The notes under the pieces are model-generated. The model had not been told where the DNA came from and made no database searches. It was given only the letters and a program-made list of their open reading frames with translations. The translations under genes and the position numbers were made by a program. Positions 9,285-29,537 of a stretch of 64,000 nt of DNA are shown here, one piece after another. Every line of letters begins with the position of its first letter. Positions within the stretch are counted from its first letter, which is position 1. Origin of the DNA: Candidatus Obscuribacter phosphatis (GTDB lineage Bacteria; Cyanobacteriota; Vampirovibrionia; Obscuribacterales; Obscuribacteraceae); contig MOYA01000001.1 in assembly GCA_001899315.1 (NCBI GenBank), positions 2,022,599 to 2,086,598 of the forward strand, read 5' to 3'.

Positions 9285-9983
9285 GTGTCTAGAGATACGA
9301 CTGTCGTAGACAAAAACTATGCAGAGGAAAAAGCCTGCATAAAATGTCGTCGTTCTCTGGAAGCCAGGGCTAAGTTCTGCGGCAATTGCGGTTCTGAACA
9401 GCCTAAAATGGTCTATTACCCTGAATTACAGTCGGTGCAGCTTAGCCCGCTCAGTCAAAGTAATCAGATGAGTCAGCTTAGTCAGATAAGACATCTGAGT
9501 CTTAGCCAAGAACTAATGATGGTGGGCAGCCGTGTGGAAGAGGCAAAACAAGCCAGCCTCATCGCCCCAGGTCAACCGATCTTGCAAGCGAGCTTGAACG
9601 AAAACCCAGCACAAGAAGCGGCTCGGGCGGTCTACACTACACCCGACTTCGCCAAGCGCAGGAAAAGACGCATCCCTGTTGAATTGAAAGAAGAATTAGC
9701 GGCGCTGCAGCTTTCTAAAGCGAAGCAGAAAGCCTTTCTTTTAATGCACTGGATTATCTTTCTGATTAGCAATTTAATCGGCTTGTACATTGCCTTGAAG
9801 TGCTATTTTGAATTTAACGGAGACGAAGTAGCCAAGATCATGGTGGCGACGACGCCTCTTATGTTTATCAATCTGACGGCCTTAGTTTGCCTCAGCCCGA
9901 TAAAAGGCACCAAAAGGGAACTAGCTCGACTAAAAGAGCGGGAAACCTATATCAGACTGGAATTGGAAGTAGACGCCGACTAG
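9285..9983 (+). CDS. Zinc-ribbon protein with C-terminal membrane hairpin
   Basis: I do not recognise this 232-residue protein. It has an N-terminal double-CxxC zinc ribbon (CIKC...CGNC, about 18-37), a Ser/Gln/Leu-rich linker with repeated LSQ units (about 48-80), a basic stretch (AKRRKRRIP) and two hydrophobic segments (about 155-175 and 190-208) forming a probable membrane hairpin, followed by a charged helix. This zinc ribbon plus membrane layout is common in bacterial proteins of unknown role. Start is GTG 9285. A seven-codon upstream frame (ATG 9269 to TAG 9292) overlaps that start. It lies 32 bases before the hybrid kinase, so cotranscription is likely. Confidence 0.65.
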   Translation: MSRDTTVVDKNYAEEKACIKCRRSLEARAKFCGNCGSEQPKMVYYPELQSVQLSPLSQSNQMSQLSQIRHLSLSQELMMVGSRVEEAKQASLIAPGQPILQASLNENPAQEAARAVYTTPDFAKRRKRRIPVELKEELAALQLSKAKQKAFLLMHWIIFLISNLIGLYIALKCYFEFNGDEVAKIMVATTPLMFINLTALVCLSPIKGTKRELARLKERETYIRLELEVDAD

Positions 9984-10015
9984 TTTATTCCAAGCCATTT
10001 GCTCGGCATTTTCGT

Positions 10016-13000
10016 ATGGATAAATTGCATTTAGAGGCCCTTAAGGCCCAGATATTTGCCCTAGCCCTTAAACATGGGGCTAAACAGTGTTTGCTGCTCA
10101 AGAGCGACGAGAGCGGCATCGAATGGAGCGAAGGCCAAGAACTGCTCTCAATAGATGTGGACTTCAAAAAACTATTAGAAGAAGCAAGAAATAATCTAGA
10201 GATCAATCTAGAGATCAAGGTGGAGACAATAAAGGTCGAAGGTATAAGCCGCAAAGTCTTGTTTGTTTCAGAGAAAAAAGAAGACTTTGAATACGAAAGG
10301 CTCAGACAGGAACTAAAGGACCTTAAGCAAAAGTTTTCAGCTATCTTTGACCAGACTTTTCAGTTCACCGGGCTTGTTTCACCAGACGGCATTCTATTGG
10401 AATGTAACCAGACTGCCCTAAAGTTTGCCGGATTGACCTGGGATGAGGCAATTGGAAAACCCTTCTGGGAATTGAAATGGTGGTCTCGCTCGCCGGAGGC
10501 AAAAGACCAACTAAAAGATGCCATTGCCAGAGCCAGGAAAGGCGAATTAGTTAGAGCCACAGTAGAAAACATTGGCGTCGATGAAAGTTCAGTCATGCTG
10601 GACTTTTCGATGAAACCAATTTTCAATGACGAGGGCGAAGTCATTTTCTTGATCCCGGAAGGCAGAGATATCACCGATAGACTGGAAGCCGAAAAGGAGC
10701 TGGAATTGAGAGCCGAAGCCTTGGCAGAAGCCAATGCCAGGTTGAAAGAGTCGGAAAAACTAAAGTCTGAATTTCTCGCCAATGTCTCGCATGAATTGAG
10801 AACACCGCTTACCTTGACCTTGGCGCCGCTGGAAACCTTGCTGGCAGGCGAAATAAGCAAAGAGCAAAAGCCCTTTCTAGAGCTCATGCACAATAACTGC
10901 AATCGCCTGCTATCCATGGTGAATGGTCTGCTCGACTTCTCAAAACTGGAAGCGGGCAAGGTGAACGTCAATAGAGAAGCAGTCGACCTGGTCAAACTAG
11001 TGCAAACATTGGCGAGCGACTTCAAGCCTCTCTTGGCAAAGCGCGATCTAAAGCTGACTCTTGCCTTGCCTGAGCAACCACTTTGGGTTGAAATTGACCG
11101 TTATCTAACCGAACGTATACTTTTCAACTTACTTTCTAACGCAGTCAAATTTACACCGAAAGGTTCTGTTTCAATTGAGCTAAGACGCTTGCCTGATGAT
11201 ATGGTGGAAATCTTGGTTAGCGATACCGGTGTTGGTATCAAGACAAGCGAGTTGCCCAATCTTTTTGTGCGCTTCAGACAGCTAGAAGGCTCATCGGCTA
11301 GGCGTTTTGAAGGGACCGGCTTGGGACTGGCCTTGGTCAAGGAATTTGCCGAACTGATGCAGGGTGATGTGCGAGTGGAAAGCGCAGAAGGACGAGGCTC
11401 GACCTTTTCGGTCAAACTAAAGGCCCAAGAATGCCAAAAGAGTGAAGGCAACGAACCGGAAGGGCGGACAAAACGTCAGCCCCTGCCCCGCTTTGATCCG
11501 ATGAAGGAGTATCAGAAGGGAGTTCAATCAGCTTCTGATCTTAGTCAAAACAGCAAAACCACAGTCTTAGTTGCCGAAGACAATAGTGAACTAGCCAATT
11601 ACATACACTATTTGCTTAAAGACTTTTGCCAGGTGAAGCTGGCGTCAAACGGCAAAGAAGCCTTGCGTATTCTAGAAGAAGAAGAACAACAACCTGACCT
11701 GATTTTATCCGATGTGATGATGCCCGAAATGGACGGTTTGAAGCTCTGTCAGGAAGTGAAAAGCAACGAAGCATGGTCCTCAATACCAGTTATTTTTCTG
11801 ACCGCCTTGACTCACCGCGATGCCCTCTTGAAAGGTTGGCAAGCCGGTGCCGATGACTATCTCTTCAAGCCCTTTCACCCAACCGAGCTCACCACCAGGG
11901 TAAGGTCGGCACTGAAGATCAAAAAAGATCTCAACAAACTGCACCAAAAACTGCGAAACAGCAGAGATGAAGCTCTGCAAGCCGATACTTTCAAGAGCCA
12001 ATTCGTCTCGATGCTCTCTCATGAAATCAGAACCCCCTTGAACGCTGTCATCGGCATGAGCGAATTGCTCAGCCAGACCAAGCTTAGTGCAGAGCAGGAA
12101 AACCTGCTCAAGACTGTGCAGTATTCGGCTTCTATGCTCATGGACTTGCTCAATAATGTGCTTGACTTTACCAAGCTGGAGGCGGGCAAATTAGAACAGG
12201 AAACAATCGAATTTATGACCAAAGATCTGGTCAATGAATCGCTGGAATTACTAAGCCCGGCAGCCAGACGCAAAAATCTTAGCCTGAAAGCCGAAATAGA
12301 TCAGGAAGTACCGTTAACTGTGGAAGCCGACCTCTCTAGACTGAGACAGGTGCTGGTCAATCTCTTGAGCAATGCCGTCAAGTTTACTGAAAGCGGCGAA
12401 GTTGCACTAAAGCTTAAGCTGGAAGCCAAAGACAAAAGGCGTGCCATCTTGAGATTCTCGGTGATTGATACCGGCTGCGGTATCGCCGCCGAAAAACTGG
12501 AAGATATCTTCAAACCATTTTTTCAAGCCGACGCCAGTATTGCTCGTAATTTTGGAGGCACCGGTCTGGGTCTGGCCATCTGTCGCAGTTTGGTGGAAAG
12601 TATGGGCGGCAGCATTGAACTAACAAGCAAAGTGGGCAGAGGCTCATGCTTTAGCTTCTCCATCCCGGTAAAGATAAAAGACAGAAAAGAGACGACTGAG
12701 AAGAGCAAAGAGAAAGTGTCAGACATATTTGTTGAGGCAAACAGCCACGAGAAACTTTTCAGCGTCAAGCATAGACCAGAAGAAAAGCGTGAGTTGATTC
12801 TGATTGCCGAAGACAATCCAGCCGATCGAGCCCTGCTTTCCTTACAGCTCAAGGCCTTGGGCTACCGCTCACAAGCAGTAGATAGCGCCGACCGACTTAT
12901 CTTAGAGTTCCAGAAAGGTCTCTACGACCTAATCATTGTCGACTGCCAAATGCCCATAATGGACGGCTTTGAAGCAGCTTTAAAAATAAGACAGCTAGAA

Positions 13001-24363: not shown

Positions 24364-24429
24364 AGGACCGCTCCCATTAATCTTCGGAGCGGTCCTAAAA
24401 CTAAAGAGGGAGGCATTGCCTCCCTCTTT
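24364..24429 (-). terminator. Two tandem hairpins between the converging repressor and secretin genes
   Basis: Hairpin one is AAAGAGGGAGGC/GCCTCCCTCTTT (24403-24414 with 24418-24429). Hairpin two is AGGACCGCTCC/GGAGCGGTCCT (24364-24374 with 24386-24396), followed on the minus strand by a T-rich tract. They should terminate the secretin transcript and could also stop the repressor transcript. Confidence 0.75.
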
Positions 24430-24448: not shown

Positions 24449-26479
24449 TTATTCGTTGTCTGGAACAGGAGCGCCTTCAGGCAAGGTCGGAGAGGTCTTC
24501 TGGTGACGTTCCGCACGACCGGTGGTGTAGTGACGTTCGTCAACAACAGTCGGTTCAACTTGGAACATGTTCATGTCACGAGGACCTTCAACACGGCCGA
24601 TTTCTTCGGGCAACTTGAGCTGACCGGGAGTTCCGGGCAAGATGATCTCAGGTCTGACGGCAACAACCAATTCGCTCTCGTTTTTGTTGAAAGCTTTGGA
24701 ACGGTAGAGCGCGCCGAGTACCGGAACTTCACCGAGCATCGGTAGCTTGGTCAATTCACGACCGTTGTTGGTGCTGACCAAACCGCAAAGATAAAGCTCT
24801 TGTCCAGGCTTCAGTTCTACGATGGTCTGGCTCTTTCTGGTTGTGAAACCAGGTATCTGTTGGTTGGCAGCGCCGCCCAACGAGAAGGCTAGTTCTGCAG
24901 AGAGGATTCTTTCTTCAGGAGAAATTTGGAGGTTGATTGTTCCATTTTCCTGGAGAACAGGAATCATGTTGAGCCTCATACCAAACGGTTCGAAGGTAAC
25001 CGAGGTAAGAGCGGCACCAGCTGTAGCGATCTGCTGAATGATTGGGATCTCACCACCAGCCAAGAAGGCGGCTCTCTCACCAGATATGGTGACCAGGGTC
25101 GGCTCAGCAAGAACGCGAGCGCGGCGCTGGGAGATGATGCCTTGGATGGTCGGGTTGATGGAGAACTGCGGACCGGTACCGTTACCGAAGTTGGAAATAC
25201 CGGTGAACATGTTGATCAAGCCGCCGGGGTTGAAGGTGGCACCACCGGGAGAGGCTAGCAAGATGGCTTGCTGAAGCAGAGCAGCAGGAGCTGTCAACGG
25301 AATGGGCTGAGCTATACCGAGAACGCCACCAGCAGCAGTTGTGAAGGAAACCGGTCTAAGAGTACCGACCAACTGAGGGTTTGTGGCACCACGTTGAGCG
25401 AGGGTTAGACCAGGAACAGCGGAGAAGTCTCCGTAAGGAGCCTGGATACCGGCTGTCGCAGCGGTCAAGCCTTGCAAGTAGCGGAAGCCTGGGTTGGATT
25501 GCAGAAGGGCAGCAGGGTTACCAACGTTGGCCGATGGAGCAGGACCACCGATACCGAAGGCAAAGCCTCTACCAGCCACACCGAAACCAAGTTGAGTACC
25601 GAGTTCACGAGCAGCAGCCGTGTTCATTTCCATGAAGGTGACGTGCAGAGCGATGAGCGGCACTTTACGGACCTTAACGAGGGAGGTAACGCGACCGCCA
25701 TCGGAAACCATGACCTGGGCTTTACCGATGTTATTGGGGATGTTGCCGAAGAAGGTGTATTGGTCAACAGAGGCGATCTGAGCCAGTCTGCCGGTACCAC
25801 CGCCACCAGCCATACCGCCGCCGGCGCCAGCGCCACCTTGTTCACCCAACCTGCCGGCCACAATGCGGCTGTTGGCCACTTGGATGTTCATGCCGCGGTC
25901 ATCCATAAATACGTTGGATGCAGCGAAGGCTCTGATGATTGATTCGGGGTGGTCGACATCACCGGTCAAGAGAACGCGGTCTGAACCACCTACTGAATAA
26001 GCCTTAACGATGATACGGGGATCGATCTCTCTGAGAGTAGCTTGGAGCTGGGAGTAATCTTTGGAGACTCTCAGGTCTACGTTAATGGAGTTGCCTGCAT
26101 CGTCCCAAAGGAGCATGGTGCAGGTGCCTTGGCTCTTGCCGAGGAGTACCATCTGGTTCTCAGAAACCACGACCGGTTCGGCAATGCTGGGGTCACTTAT
26201 TGATGTACGTACAACTTTGTTTTTGAACTTAAAAGTTCTCGACTGAGAAACTTTCAGATCGATTGCGCTTGTAGTCTTAAACTCTTCGAACTCAACTACG
26301 CCAGTCACCACCGGCGGAATCGGCTGAGCCGTGACAAAGTTGCTCTGATCAGCAGCCGCTTGGGCAATGACCTGATCTGGAGCGAACTTGCCAACCTCGT
26401 CTGCCTTGGCAGCCGGTGCAACAAATTGCAGCGCCATCACAGAAAGGCTCAAAGCTAAGCTCAATTTGGGCTTATTCAT
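24449..26479 (-). CDS. Secretin of CpaC/RcpA type (copy 1)
   Basis: A 676-residue outer-membrane secretin subunit of the type IVb (Tad/Flp) pilus kind. Order: signal peptide (1-26), linker, pilus-assembly N-terminal domain (about 65-140, VRTSISDPSIAEPVVVSEN), BON-like domain (about 145-215, DRVLLTGDVDHPESI), a Gly/Ala-rich loop, and the secretin beta-domain (about 260-610) with RRARVLAEPTLVTISGE, GGEIPI and LPMLGEVPVLGALYRSK. The last 50 residues are a charged tail shared with copy 2. GAGGGAG precedes the ATG. No ATPase, prepilin or TadB/C gene is in the window, so whether it builds a pilus or an export channel is unknown. Confidence 0.88.
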   Translation of the reverse strand: MNKPKLSLALSLSVMALQFVAPAAKADEVGKFAPDQVIAQAAADQSNFVTAQPIPPVVTGVVEFEEFKTTSAIDLKVSQSRTFKFKNKVVRTSISDPSIAEPVVVSENQMVLLGKSQGTCTMLLWDDAGNSINVDLRVSKDYSQLQATLREIDPRIIVKAYSVGGSDRVLLTGDVDHPESIIRAFAASNVFMDDRGMNIQVANSRIVAGRLGEQGGAGAGGGMAGGGGTGRLAQIASVDQYTFFGNIPNNIGKAQVMVSDGGRVTSLVKVRKVPLIALHVTFMEMNTAAARELGTQLGFGVAGRGFAFGIGGPAPSANVGNPAALLQSNPGFRYLQGLTAATAGIQAPYGDFSAVPGLTLAQRGATNPQLVGTLRPVSFTTAAGGVLGIAQPIPLTAPAALLQQAILLASPGGATFNPGGLINMFTGISNFGNGTGPQFSINPTIQGIISQRRARVLAEPTLVTISGERAAFLAGGEIPIIQQIATAGAALTSVTFEPFGMRLNMIPVLQENGTINLQISPEERILSAELAFSLGGAANQQIPGFTTRKSQTIVELKPGQELYLCGLVSTNNGRELTKLPMLGEVPVLGALYRSKAFNKNESELVVAVRPEIILPGTPGQLKLPEEIGRVEGPRDMNMFQVEPTVVDERHYTTGRAERHQKTSPTLPEGAPVPDNE

Positions 26480-26529
26480 TCCACTCTCCCTCTACAACTC
26501 CCCACTTATTTTCCAATTTTTAGCGACTC

Positions 26530-26592
26530 TGGGAGCACTCATGGTAATGCCGGTACAGGACCGACCAGTACAGAAGCTTAACACGATTGCCC
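26530..26592 (-). promoter_or_regulatory. Conserved 63-base block upstream of secretin copy 1
   Basis: This block matches the one at 29321-29383 with only about two differences. On the minus strand it includes a small hairpin GTCGGT-CCTGT-ACCGGC and a repeated CTGTAC with 15-base spacing. It lies about 50 bases before the start codon, so it is a promoter, operator or leader-RNA element shared by both secretins. Confidence 0.6.
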
Positions 26593-26721
26593 GGACAATG
26601 CACCAATATTTTTTCAGACTGGTGGCACTTTCAACATCAAGTTAACAATCAAGTTCAACTTTTGTCGATAGTGAACTCAGGCTCAGCAAGCCGGGTTTCA
26701 AAGATAATGCCGATAAGCGAT

Positions 26722-26744
26722 TGACAACCACCTGTGGTGCACGA
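26722..26744. promoter_or_regulatory. Conserved 23-base palindromic block upstream of secretin copy 1
   Basis: It reads TGACAACCACC, W, GTGGTGCACGA apart from a one-base difference from the copy at 29515-29537. The core ACCAC-NN-GTGGT is an inverted repeat, typical of a dimeric regulator site. It lies 129 bases beyond the 63-base block; at copy 2 the distance is 131. The rest of 26593-26843 shows nothing I recognise. Confidence 0.55.
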
Positions 26745-26843
26745 CGTCTGCTAGTAGCGTCACTGCTAAATATGCAAGAGAAATATCAAACTTCAATCAA
26801 TTTTTTTTAACCCAAGCCTGAACCTTTGCTGTCAAGGCAAAAG

Positions 26844-26871
26844 AAAAGAGCCAACCAAAGTTGGCTCTTTT
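26844..26871 (-). terminator. Terminator after secretin copy 2
   Basis: Perfect stem AAAAGAGCCAAC/GTTGGCTCTTTT (26844-26855 with 26860-26871), loop CAAA, with TTTTGCC following on the minus strand, 30 bases after the stop codon. Confidence 0.85.
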
Positions 26872-26900
26872 CAATTTCTCTATCGCTTGGTTCGGATGAC

Positions 26901-29270
26901 TTATTCGTTATCTGGAACAGGAGCGCCTTCAGGCAGAGTGGGTGAAGTCTTCTGGTGACGTTCTGCTCTACCCGATGTGTAGTAGCGCTCGTCGATGACA
27001 GAAGGTTCAACTTGGAACATGTTGAGGTCACGAGGTCCTTCAACACGACCAATCTCTTCGGGAAGCTTGAGCTGACCAGGAGTACCAGGAAGGATGATCT
27101 CAGGTCTCACAGCAATCACAAGTTCGCTTTCGTTCTTGTTGAAGGCTTTCGATCTGTAGAGGGCACCGAGTACCGGTACTTCACCCAGGACGGGCATCTT
27201 GGTTATTTCTCTACCGACGTTGGTTGATACCAAACCGGCGATATAGAGTTCTTGACCAGGCTTGAGTTCAACGATTGTCTGGGTCTTTCTGGTGGTGAAA
27301 CCAGGGACGACACCGTTACCACCAGCGATGGTGGAAAGAGCCAAGTTGTTAGCCAAGAGACGCTCTTCTGGCGAAATTTCTAAGTTGATTGTGCCGTTGT
27401 CTTGCAGCACAGGAATCATGTTGATTCTCATGCCGAAAGGTTCAAACACAACAGACTGCTGAGCAGCACCAGCGGCAGCCACAGCCTGGAGGATCGGAAT
27501 CTCACCACCGGCCAGGAAGGAGGCACGCTCACCAGATATGGTGACAAGGGTCGGCTCAGCAAGCACACGGGCTCTTCTCTGACCGATGATGCCTTGCACT
27601 GTCGGGTTTAGAGAAAAGGCAGTTCTGCCGCCCCAGTTGCTCTGACCGGTAAACATGTTGCCGCTCAGACCAGGTGCGAAGTTGACACCACCAGGAGATC
27701 CAAGCAAGTTAGCCTGGGTCAAGAGTGCGGTGGGACCGTAAACAATGTTCTGACCGATACCGGCTCCACCGATGAAGTTAACCGGCTGAACAACCGGACC
27801 ACGAGGGTCGAAGGTCAGAGCCTGAGGAGTGGTGACAGGCACGTCGACACCACCCAATGGGTTCTGATAAGGACCAGCGCCGAGACCGAGGGCGGTCTGG
27901 AACTGCCTTAGACCAGGGTTGGAGATATAAGGCACGCCTTGGTTGGCAGCAACGGCAGCGCTTGTACTACCGCCGACACCGAAGGAGAAACTCTTGTTCG
28001 CGACACCGAAGCCAAGGTTCATCGCCAATTCGCGAGCCGATGTGGTGTTCATCTCCAAGAAGGTGACGTGCAACACGATCAGAGGCACTTTGCGAACTTT
28101 GACGAGGGAGGTGACGCGACCACCGTCAGAAACCATAACTTGAGACTTACCGATGTTGTTGGCAAGGTTGCTGAAGTAGGTGTAGCGGTCAACGCTACCG
28201 ATGGTGGCAAGCTGACCGACCGAGGATGAAGTAGCGGAAGTACCGCCCTGTTCACCGATACGACCAGCGAGGATGCGGCTATTGGCCACTTGGATGTTCA
28301 TACCGCGGTCATCCATAAATACGTTGGATGCAGCGAAAGCTTTGATGATTGACTCGGGGTGATCTACGTCGCCGGTGAGGAGCACTCGGTCGGAACCAGC
28401 CACCGAGAAAGCCTTAACGATGATACGAGGATCAATCTCACGCAAGGTTGCTTGCAGCTGCGAGTAGTCGCGACTGACACGCAAGTCTAGAGCCACCGAG
28501 TTACCGGCATCATCCCAAAGAACCATGGTGCAAGTACCGGCAGATTTACCGAGGAGCACGAGTTGATTCTCAGACACAACTACAGGCTCAGCAATACCAG
28601 GATCAGAGATGGAAGTTCTCACGATCTTGTTCTTGAGCTTGAAGGTACGGGACTGTTGGGTCTTGAGGTCGATGATGTTGGTTACTTTGTACTCTTCGAA
28701 ATCTAGAGTACCGGTAACGACTGGAGGAATAGGCTGAGGAGTGAGGGTGGAGTGGTCAGCTTGAGCCATGATATGGTCCGGGGCAAGCTGAGCGACTAAC
28801 TGCTTGGAGGAAGCGCTGGTCAAAGCGGAAGAAGGAAGAGCGGCAATCTTTGGAGCGACTACCGGCGCTTCGGTTTGAGCTACTTCCGGATAAACCTGGG
28901 CTTCACCAGGCTTGATATCACCACCCATGGTGGCGGCGCCGACTGGGGCGGCGGCAATCTCTTCAAGCGGCAGAGCCGGGTGTATGGTCAAGGCTGCTGC
29001 TGGAGCAGCGCCACCGGCACCGACTTCTTTGCTCTTACCTGAAAGGAAGAGCATTGCGTGAGGATCTAATTCTTTTGTATTTGCTGTTACAGCTTTTGTC
29101 GACTTAACAGCGCTCTTGGCAGCGACAGCTCTCTGCGATGCTTTCGCGACGCCAGAACCGGACATCTGTTGCCAGATGGCACCTTGCGGTTCAGACTTGG
29201 CAGTCAGCGTATTAGCCTGGAGCAGCACTAACGAAAGACTCAAAGCTAAGCTCAACTGGGGCTTATTCAT
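26901..29270 (-). CDS. Secretin of CpaC/RcpA type (copy 2, extended N-terminus)
   Basis: A 789-residue paralogue of the secretin at 24449. Signal peptide (1-24), then an Ala/Val-rich region of about 130 residues absent from copy 1, then the same pilus N-terminal, BON-like and secretin domains and an almost identical C-terminal tail ending LPEGAPVPDNE. The Gly-rich loop between BON and secretin domains and the stretch near residues 440-560 differ most. Each copy has its own leader and terminator, so they are separately regulated tandem duplicates rather than one operon. They might form mixed or alternative channels. Some blocks are almost identical in DNA, e.g. 25874-25926 and 28281-28337. Confidence 0.88.
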   Translation of the reverse strand: MNKPQLSLALSLSLVLLQANTLTAKSEPQGAIWQQMSGSGVAKASQRAVAAKSAVKSTKAVTANTKELDPHAMLFLSGKSKEVGAGGAAPAAALTIHPALPLEEIAAAPVGAATMGGDIKPGEAQVYPEVAQTEAPVVAPKIAALPSSALTSASSKQLVAQLAPDHIMAQADHSTLTPQPIPPVVTGTLDFEEYKVTNIIDLKTQQSRTFKLKNKIVRTSISDPGIAEPVVVSENQLVLLGKSAGTCTMVLWDDAGNSVALDLRVSRDYSQLQATLREIDPRIIVKAFSVAGSDRVLLTGDVDHPESIIKAFAASNVFMDDRGMNIQVANSRILAGRIGEQGGTSATSSSVGQLATIGSVDRYTYFSNLANNIGKSQVMVSDGGRVTSLVKVRKVPLIVLHVTFLEMNTTSARELAMNLGFGVANKSFSFGVGGSTSAAVAANQGVPYISNPGLRQFQTALGLGAGPYQNPLGGVDVPVTTPQALTFDPRGPVVQPVNFIGGAGIGQNIVYGPTALLTQANLLGSPGGVNFAPGLSGNMFTGQSNWGGRTAFSLNPTVQGIIGQRRARVLAEPTLVTISGERASFLAGGEIPILQAVAAAGAAQQSVVFEPFGMRINMIPVLQDNGTINLEISPEERLLANNLALSTIAGGNGVVPGFTTRKTQTIVELKPGQELYIAGLVSTNVGREITKMPVLGEVPVLGALYRSKAFNKNESELVIAVRPEIILPGTPGQLKLPEEIGRVEGPRDLNMFQVEPSVIDERYYTSGRAERHQKTSPTLPEGAPVPDNE

Positions 29271-29320
29271 TCCACTCTCCCTCTATGAACTCCCGACCTA
29301 ATTTCCTTAACACTTGACAC

Positions 29321-29383
29321 TGGGAGCACTCATGGTAACGCCGGTACAGGACCGACCAGTACAGAAGCTTAACACGACTGCCC
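29321..29383 (-). promoter_or_regulatory. Conserved 63-base block upstream of secretin copy 2
   Basis: Second copy of the block at 26530-26592, in the same orientation and about the same distance (50 bases) from the start codon. The intervening sequence next to the start differs except for the Shine-Dalgarno GAGGGAGAGTGG, so conservation of the block suggests a function. Confidence 0.6.
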
Positions 29384-29514: not shown

Positions 29515-29537
29515 TGACAACCACCAGTGGTGCACGA
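29515..29537. promoter_or_regulatory. Conserved 23-base palindromic block upstream of secretin copy 2
   Basis: Second copy of the ACCAC-NN-GTGGT inverted repeat block found at 26722-26744, including flanking TGACA and GCACGA. It lies in the 693-base gap shared with the divergent rpaB-like gene, so it could serve either. Confidence 0.55.

Follow-up and report, generated by a model that had tools for sequence, protein, structure and literature searches.

Tandem Tad-type secretins of Candidatus Obscuribacter phosphatis and a tail module shared with macroglobulin bait loops

Two Tad-type secretin genes in tandem

Within the 64,000-nucleotide stretch of Candidatus Obscuribacter phosphatis DNA analyzed here (hereafter “the window”), two secretin genes of the Tad type follow one another on the reverse strand: an upstream copy A of 789 amino acids (26901..29270) and a downstream copy B of 676 amino acids (24449..26479). 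Both are true secretins by profile search, with Pfam Secretin and T2SS-T3SS_pil_N matches over cut-off in copy A (residues 565–726 and 200–265, respectively) and in copy B (450–613 and 72–135). The two best PDB matches of copy B were 8jvb (E 3e-33), named merely type II and III secretion system protein, and then the Tad secretin RcpA (8odn, E 2e-31), and it scored far under the cut-offs of the GspD (91 bits vs 351) and PilQ (72 bits vs 284) models. These results bear out a preliminary description of the locus, which had read the genes as tandem Tad-type secretins with identical C-terminal ends (LPEGAPVPDNE in both) and about 130 extra residues before the pilus domain of one copy: the extension comprises ~128 residues and belongs to copy A, where pil_N starts at residue 200 instead of 72. 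That the window holds no other pilus gene stands for the families sought, i.e., Secretin, T2SSE, TadE, T2SSF, and listed CpaB-like, which had no further match in it. The pair thus resembles the RcpA/CpaC secretins of Tad (type IVc) pili, whose pilotin is TadD, in its pil_N and Secretin domains, its tail after the barrel, and its RcpA match, but differs in being tandem and far from both tad clusters of the genome, in the N-terminal extension of copy A, and in a long conserved tail that is common to other proteins.

Two segments of these secretins recur elsewhere in the order: the C-terminal tail, described below, and an inner linker (MNIQVANSRI...SVDRYTYFSNLANN in copy A, 28155..28301; MNIQVANSRI...SVDQYTFFGNIPNN in copy B, 25730..25891; both on the reverse strand), pieces of which are found in the bait loops of macroglobulins (A2Ms). 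The predicted structure of copy B is poor overall (mean pLDDT 49), and within it the linker (residues 201–254, pLDDT under 50) and the tail have very low confidence, which suggests that both may be flexible or disordered.

The two copies share 464 of 660 aligned residues (BLASTP). At the codon level, the encoded residue agrees at 469 of 654 aligned positions and, once Met and Trp are excluded, 240 of 458 same-residue codons are identical; the best 40-codon window reaches 88% nucleotide identity. The near-identical DNA blocks noted earlier are therefore not a property of the coding sequence. They do exist in the leaders, where a block of ~62 nt with two differences (29316..29377 for copy A, 26525..26586 for copy B, both on the reverse strand) stands in a background that barely aligns. 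Its 25-nt core occurs at only these two places in the genome (≤3 mismatches). Across the order, eight named loci keep the leader core at 24–28 of its 28 positions, and five more do so at 17–21, with shuffles reaching 14–18 of 28 over all loci; the remaining loci were at shuffle level. In one locus (L061), only the first secretin copy carries the core, and the second copy is at shuffle level. An ATG within the block is not kept in L061 and L064. The leaders matched no known RNA family at the gathering threshold, the sole match in the window being a tRNA elsewhere, and a consensus RNA fold was unsupported (11 weak pairs, none with two-sided changes). A second upstream element, CGTGCACCAC-N-GGTGGTTGTCA, was read from the sequence ahead of both genes (29515..29536 and 26722..26743, reverse strand); an 18-nt part of it occurs in 7 of 295 loci, and outside this genome only in L038 and L061. 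Between the genes lies a strong intrinsic terminator (26843..26872, reverse strand) with a 13-pair stem and a T run, and 3′ of copy B an inverted repeat (24403..24429, reverse strand), read from the sequence and absent from the terminator scan list, is a probable terminator. Overall, a leader for each gene and a terminator after copy A hold as first described, and the terminator after copy B is reduced to an inverted repeat. The proposal of separate control is weakened by the common element in both leaders, with L061 having it on the first copy only.

Elsewhere in the genome (5.49 Mb, 95% complete), profile searches identified three Secretin matches in total, the third being PilQ-like (best NCBIfam match PilQ, below cut-off). 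Two Tad clusters were found, at C1 1.15 Mb and C3 0.47 Mb: one includes TadE and CpaB, the other CpaB and a Flp-like pilin (by reading, with no Pfam match), and each has frames of CpaE, TadA, TadB, and TadC type. Neither contains a secretin. The suggested search for Tad genes elsewhere was thus positive, and the pair does lie outside a pilus operon, as had been claimed. Since both clusters are without a secretin, the simplest assignment is that the two orphan secretins would serve the two Tad machines, although genes in the 5% not covered by the assembly might alter this picture. Frames of PilB, PilT, and PilC type (by reading) form a set of their own at 2.73 Mb, and there are three weaker T2SSE matches. 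The genome also holds a third CpaB-like gene away from both tad clusters (L291 2869–3822, forward strand). TadE/TadG-like frames at C1 2.64 Mb (L295 2107–5530, forward strand), one of them over the TadE cut-off and with no secretion ATPase seen beside them in that stretch, may represent one more group of minor pilin-like proteins. Separately, the pil_N part of the secretin model matched proteins (L106 4429–5919, L107 2971–4944, L108 1780–3882, and L111 3326–4309) whose pil_N-like stretches look repeated and are without the secretin-like rest; a CpaB-type sequence (IWSG/IWTG..) forms the very end of the L106 protein and precedes a further region in those of L107 and L108. Such proteins might serve as additional connectors of the Tad rings in the envelope.

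As to whether both copies are kept in relatives, two consecutive secretin frames occur in 21 of 39 named loci of the order, a survey in which several loci without a tandem pair stop at contig ends and the first member in L075 is odd and long-branched. A tree built from 56 proteins places the A copies from the clade of the window in one group (9 tips, support 0.98) and the B copies in another (10 tips, support 0.99), so that, on this tree, the A/B split of the clade predates the divergence of those genomes. Elsewhere in the tree, A and B copies mostly cluster with each other inside their own clade, which points to repeated duplication or conversion in those lineages. Of the two events initially proposed for the window pair, recent duplication is rejected on the tree and the codon divergence, and recent gene conversion finds no support in the tree; misassembly of one locus is very unlikely, tandem pairs recurring in other named genomes.

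A charged tail shared with macroglobulins and other proteins

Searching the order with the two secretins also brought up large unrelated frames that matched over roughly the final 57 columns and nowhere else. These columns correspond to a charged tail of ~57 residues (hereafter “T”), located at 26904..27080 in copy A (G000:C1:2049502-2049678, E 7.5e-39) and at 24452..24628 in copy B (G000:C1:2047050-2047226, E 7.1e-40), both on the reverse strand. A model built from 12 rows yielded 120 matches in 49 of 53 genomes of Candidatus Obscuribacterales, including 22 of 22 good genomes. In an even sample of 386 genomes of the phylum, T was detected in one, which is the window's own, and in none of the other 385. 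T had no Pfam match, only a chance match in the PDB (E 1.4), and no relative among viral contigs.

By carrier, the matches divide into 72 in secretins, 20 in macroglobulin-like proteins (here also called A2Ms; 17 genomes), 5 in VIT/vWA proteins, and 23 in small or other proteins, a tally by contig that includes second matches per protein and contig-end pieces. The window's own genome has both secretins, one A2M (L147 3830–8239), and one small protein (L146 3247–3897) whose start is signal-peptide-like; small T proteins of this kind would be exported. VIT and vWA domains were found in all five VIT/vWA carriers. One of these (L099) resembles TIGR03788, the VIT/vWA “marine proteobacterial sortase target” family, matching over 94–674 with 479 bits (cut-off 552), but L099-type proteins have T followed by a small C-terminal domain without a Pfam family. 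This domain of ~65 residues follows T in VIT/vWA proteins and some small proteins (L099, L152, L286–L288, L110, and L158–L161; seven members were aligned, and L286–L288 were assigned by reading). A protease inhibitor identity was considered for it and dropped, there being no significant or member-shared Pfam match.

In the secretins, T forms a conserved C-terminus. Given its location after the barrel, the same place as the S-domain of P. aeruginosa RcpA, T is probably the order's form of that flexible domain. In the A2M and VIT/vWA proteins, T is internal. Since the VIT/vWA carriers and the small ones lack a bait, T also serves some purpose other than as bait.

The placement of T in the A2Ms is consistent: all 20 copies lie 17–90 codons before the PF00207 match, and in the A2M domain order this is where the bait loop is found. 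A bait-region-domain match precedes T in 7 of 8 scanned A2M carriers, two of the seven below cut-off, and is absent before T in L147. The CxEQ thioester motif was present in 10 of 10 T-carrying A2Ms readable by script, which did not pick one of the two L149 proteins. In the 1450-aa class, MG2, PF00207, and TED_complement were over cut-off in all six proteins scanned (L147, L098, L100, L102, L154, and L164). In the 2000-aa class (L148 and L149 scanned), PF00207, the bait-region domain, and bMG10 matched, MG2 was over cut-off in L148 only, and TED_complement in neither. In MG2, PF00207, CxEQ, and bait position, with TED in the 1450-aa class, these proteins resemble type I (thioester) bacterial A2Ms, and like them would trap a protease after bait cleavage; what sets them apart is that their baits reproduce, in conserved form, stretches of pilus and secretion proteins of the same cell.

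Comparing T between A2Ms and the secretins of the same genome (18 pairings), 805 of 973 residue positions agree (83%), while 300 of 793 same-residue codons are identical (38%; Met and Trp excluded), the same share as for T across genomes (2694 of 7104). Because residues agree at 83% while codons stand at the between-genome level, T in the baits looks old and kept by selection at the protein level, not freshly copied. A DNA-level mobile element is disfavored by this codon comparison and by the lack of a viral-contig relative. Nor was concerted change of the A2M copy with its own secretin seen: the own genome took first place, alone or shared, in no more than 4 of 13 comparisons, in a secretin set that included two small proteins (L146 and L153) with too little overlap to score. 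Instead, T in A2Ms tracks the consensus of the order.

Further self segments in the bait loops

We then considered 99 distinct baits (leaving out, e.g., G031:C137, G017:C57, and the last, weak rows), located with a PF00207 finder profile whose four source sequences were all T carriers, so that baits of other classes may be wrongly placed; as controls, we used 131 segments taken from other parts of these A2Ms, and 990 shuffles. By reading, baits hold, in addition to T, two more secretin segments: GTVEFEE from the N-terminus and the linker that joins the N-domains to the core (QVANSRI, LAQLSSVDRYTFF). A profile of 57 secretins matched 20 of the 99 baits and none of the 131 controls or 990 shuffles. 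Other baits, mostly of the 2000-aa class, contain a CpaB linker (SDLSSLPPPSALPPPPLPG), and two further motifs recur, D (GLVGAPVDPRYGQSNEV) and G (APxLQGATNGTIGPQG). Profiles built exclusively from non-A2M proteins matched 7 baits for the CpaB linker (10 distinct sequences in the profile), 4 for D, 4 for G, and 2 for R (2 sequences), with 0/131 controls each and, for the proline-rich linker, 1/990 shuffles. The C-terminal stretch of CpaB (EIWSG end; 4 sequences in the hairpin profile) was found in none of the 99 baits.

Overall, the union of these profiles assigned a self piece to 31 of 99 baits, compared to 0/131 controls and 1/990 shuffles, and 68 baits had none of these pieces. Piece-bearing baits amounted to 17/33 in the 1450-aa class, 7/13 in the 2000-aa class, 0/37 in the 1690-aa class, and 7/16 unassigned, in a class split that rests on short motifs. 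In the window's own genome, the bait of one of four A2Ms has a self piece. A looser 7-mer scan for words of the secretins or CpaB was positive in 28 of 99 baits vs 3 of 131 controls, where the words were isolated; its secretin class included T-only carriers, and a recount without them still gave 28/99. Outside these pieces, and by reading, the baits are unlike one another, and the pieces vary between lineages. A glycine-zipper-like stretch, GRGAWSGTAIGAGAG (GRGGW in L239), was also seen in A2M baits and in a VIT/vWA protein (L124, L234, L239, and L152).

D and G at first matched no source protein, and a prediction was fixed beforehand: if baits copy exported parts of their own cell, both motifs should be pieces of exported proteins. 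The prediction held, each motif being traced to the N-terminal part of small proteins with signal-peptide-like starts. D directly follows such a start in a protein of ~143 amino acids, and 50 of the order's 53 genomes contain the motif (E 0.05). In the window's own genome, the D gene is clustered with a TraG/TraC-type ATPase; R is another small protein of the D cluster. In L356, the frame at 156–2975 matches P-loop_TraG (E 1e-16) and lies on the same strand as the D protein (9722–10150), with three frames between them. The whole stretch (L356 156–10866, reverse strand) comprises the ATPase, a 1787-aa unknown protein, and the D-family protein; in the L359 stretch, no ATPase of TraG/TraC/VirB4 type was seen. 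G lies ~30 residues after the signal-peptide-like start, in the N-terminal part of proteins of 167–181 amino acids encoded in tandem arrays. One genome has such an array at L358 335–6102 (reverse strand), and genome G031 has 36 G-motif matches. Neither family matched a pilin profile in Pfam or NCBIfam; on reading, both would be exported and pilin-like, and we presume the D family to be akin to conjugative pilins of the VirB2/TrbC type. D and G also occur near the C-terminus of ~1000-aa frames that end with the whole small protein; baits hold only ~15–32 residues of the D and G proteins, without the hydrophobic segments.

Possible roles of the shared segments

Computation establishes the secretins and the shared pieces, places these pieces ahead of PF00207, and shows the CxEQ motif and the codon divergence of T. 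From these features we infer a mechanism in which bait loops imitate those parts of the pili and pilus machines of the same cell that are open to proteases, and thus act as self-decoys, a reading to which we would give a probability of about 45%. A protease, presumably either an outside attacker or one of the cell's own, would attack the exposed flexible parts of pili and pilus machines, would cut the look-alike bait of an A2M instead, and by doing so would spring the thioester trap and be captured. This reading is favored because cutting of the bait sets off the trap, and the sequence of the bait decides which protease is caught: MagD, a bacterial A2M, traps TEV protease once its bait is changed to a TEV site (PMC5764988), and substrate sequences placed in the bait of human A2M select the protease (PMC8267569). 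Such engineered baits (a TEV site in MagD, an MMP2 substrate in the human protein) resemble the present case in that a foreign bait sequence determines the protease (PMC5764988 and PMC8267569), but here the baits would be natural and self-copied. Several observations go against self-decoys: T is kept over ~57 residues in many baits, beyond what a cleavage site needs; it is also found in proteins without bait (VIT/vWA and small); T in A2Ms does not track the own secretin; 68 of 99 baits are without a piece, among them the whole 1690-aa class and three of the four in the window's own genome; and the looser 7-mer scan has words in 3 of 131 controls as well.

The main rival explanation is that T is a docking module: it would bind one and the same partner in the envelope, with a TadD-like pilotin as the likeliest candidate, and so hold its carriers beside the Tad channel. 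We regard this as doubtful, though a serious contender, and it stays alive because of the length of T, its bait-less carriers, and the baits without pieces. Under docking, the bait loop would be merely a permissive site for T, which we likewise think rather unlikely. The S-domain of P. aeruginosa RcpA is disordered and binds TadD through its last four residues, according to PMC10499894, and docking would also fit a T that is nearly whole in many carriers, bait-less proteins included, and under protein-level constraint. However, binding by RcpA is through its extreme C-terminus, whereas the A2M and VIT/vWA copies of T are internal, and the other bait pieces (the inner linker, the CpaB linker, and the two pilin-like N-terminal segments) would each need a partner. 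For CpaB, the part expected to bind is absent: RcpC (CpaB) reportedly needs its C-terminal hairpin to interact with RcpA (PMC12307814), and the conserved EIWSG end of CpaB, which by analogy may be equated with it, is the stretch found in 0/99 baits.

The ~1000-aa frames with a whole D or G pilin-like domain at their end open another path, in which VIT/vWA-like proteins would be built into pili as pilus-associated adhesins or traps. VIT exceeds the Pfam cut-off in L300 and lies just under it in L307 and L357, but the G-type frames L331 and L343 had no significant VIT or vWA match, and we judge this reading improbable. Equally improbable is its corollary that the A2M pieces are relics or mimics attaching A2Ms to the same fibers, as the shortness of the pieces in baits and the absence of hydrophobic segments speak against it. 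The least probable of the readings, with very little chance of being right in our estimate, is neutral capture, with tolerant bait loops acquiring stray fragments of coding sequence through illegitimate recombination, which would make the similarity no more than a record of history. It would account for baits that are otherwise dissimilar and for pieces that depend on lineage, yet the 83% residue agreement of T at between-genome codon divergence indicates age and selection, the sources found are pilus and secretion proteins or small exported-looking proteins, and by profile none of the 131 control segments contains a piece.

In the open-access literature, we found no report of pilus pieces in macroglobulin baits, an absence that is not proof. 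The tandem secretins alone are a modest finding; that their tail is shared with A2M baits, along with other pieces, was unexpected. The role of bacterial A2Ms, that of the thioester-less class in particular, is still discussed as open (PMC5764988). For Obscuribacterales, we tentatively propose, at odds somewhat short of even, that bait loops were assembled from exposed flexible self segments (secretins, CpaB, and pilin-like proteins) and represent a sequence-coded innate decoy defense. If this is true, the bait sequence would name the targets under attack, the natural protease could be fished with the bait, and A2M sequences would reveal the exposed segments of unstudied pili.
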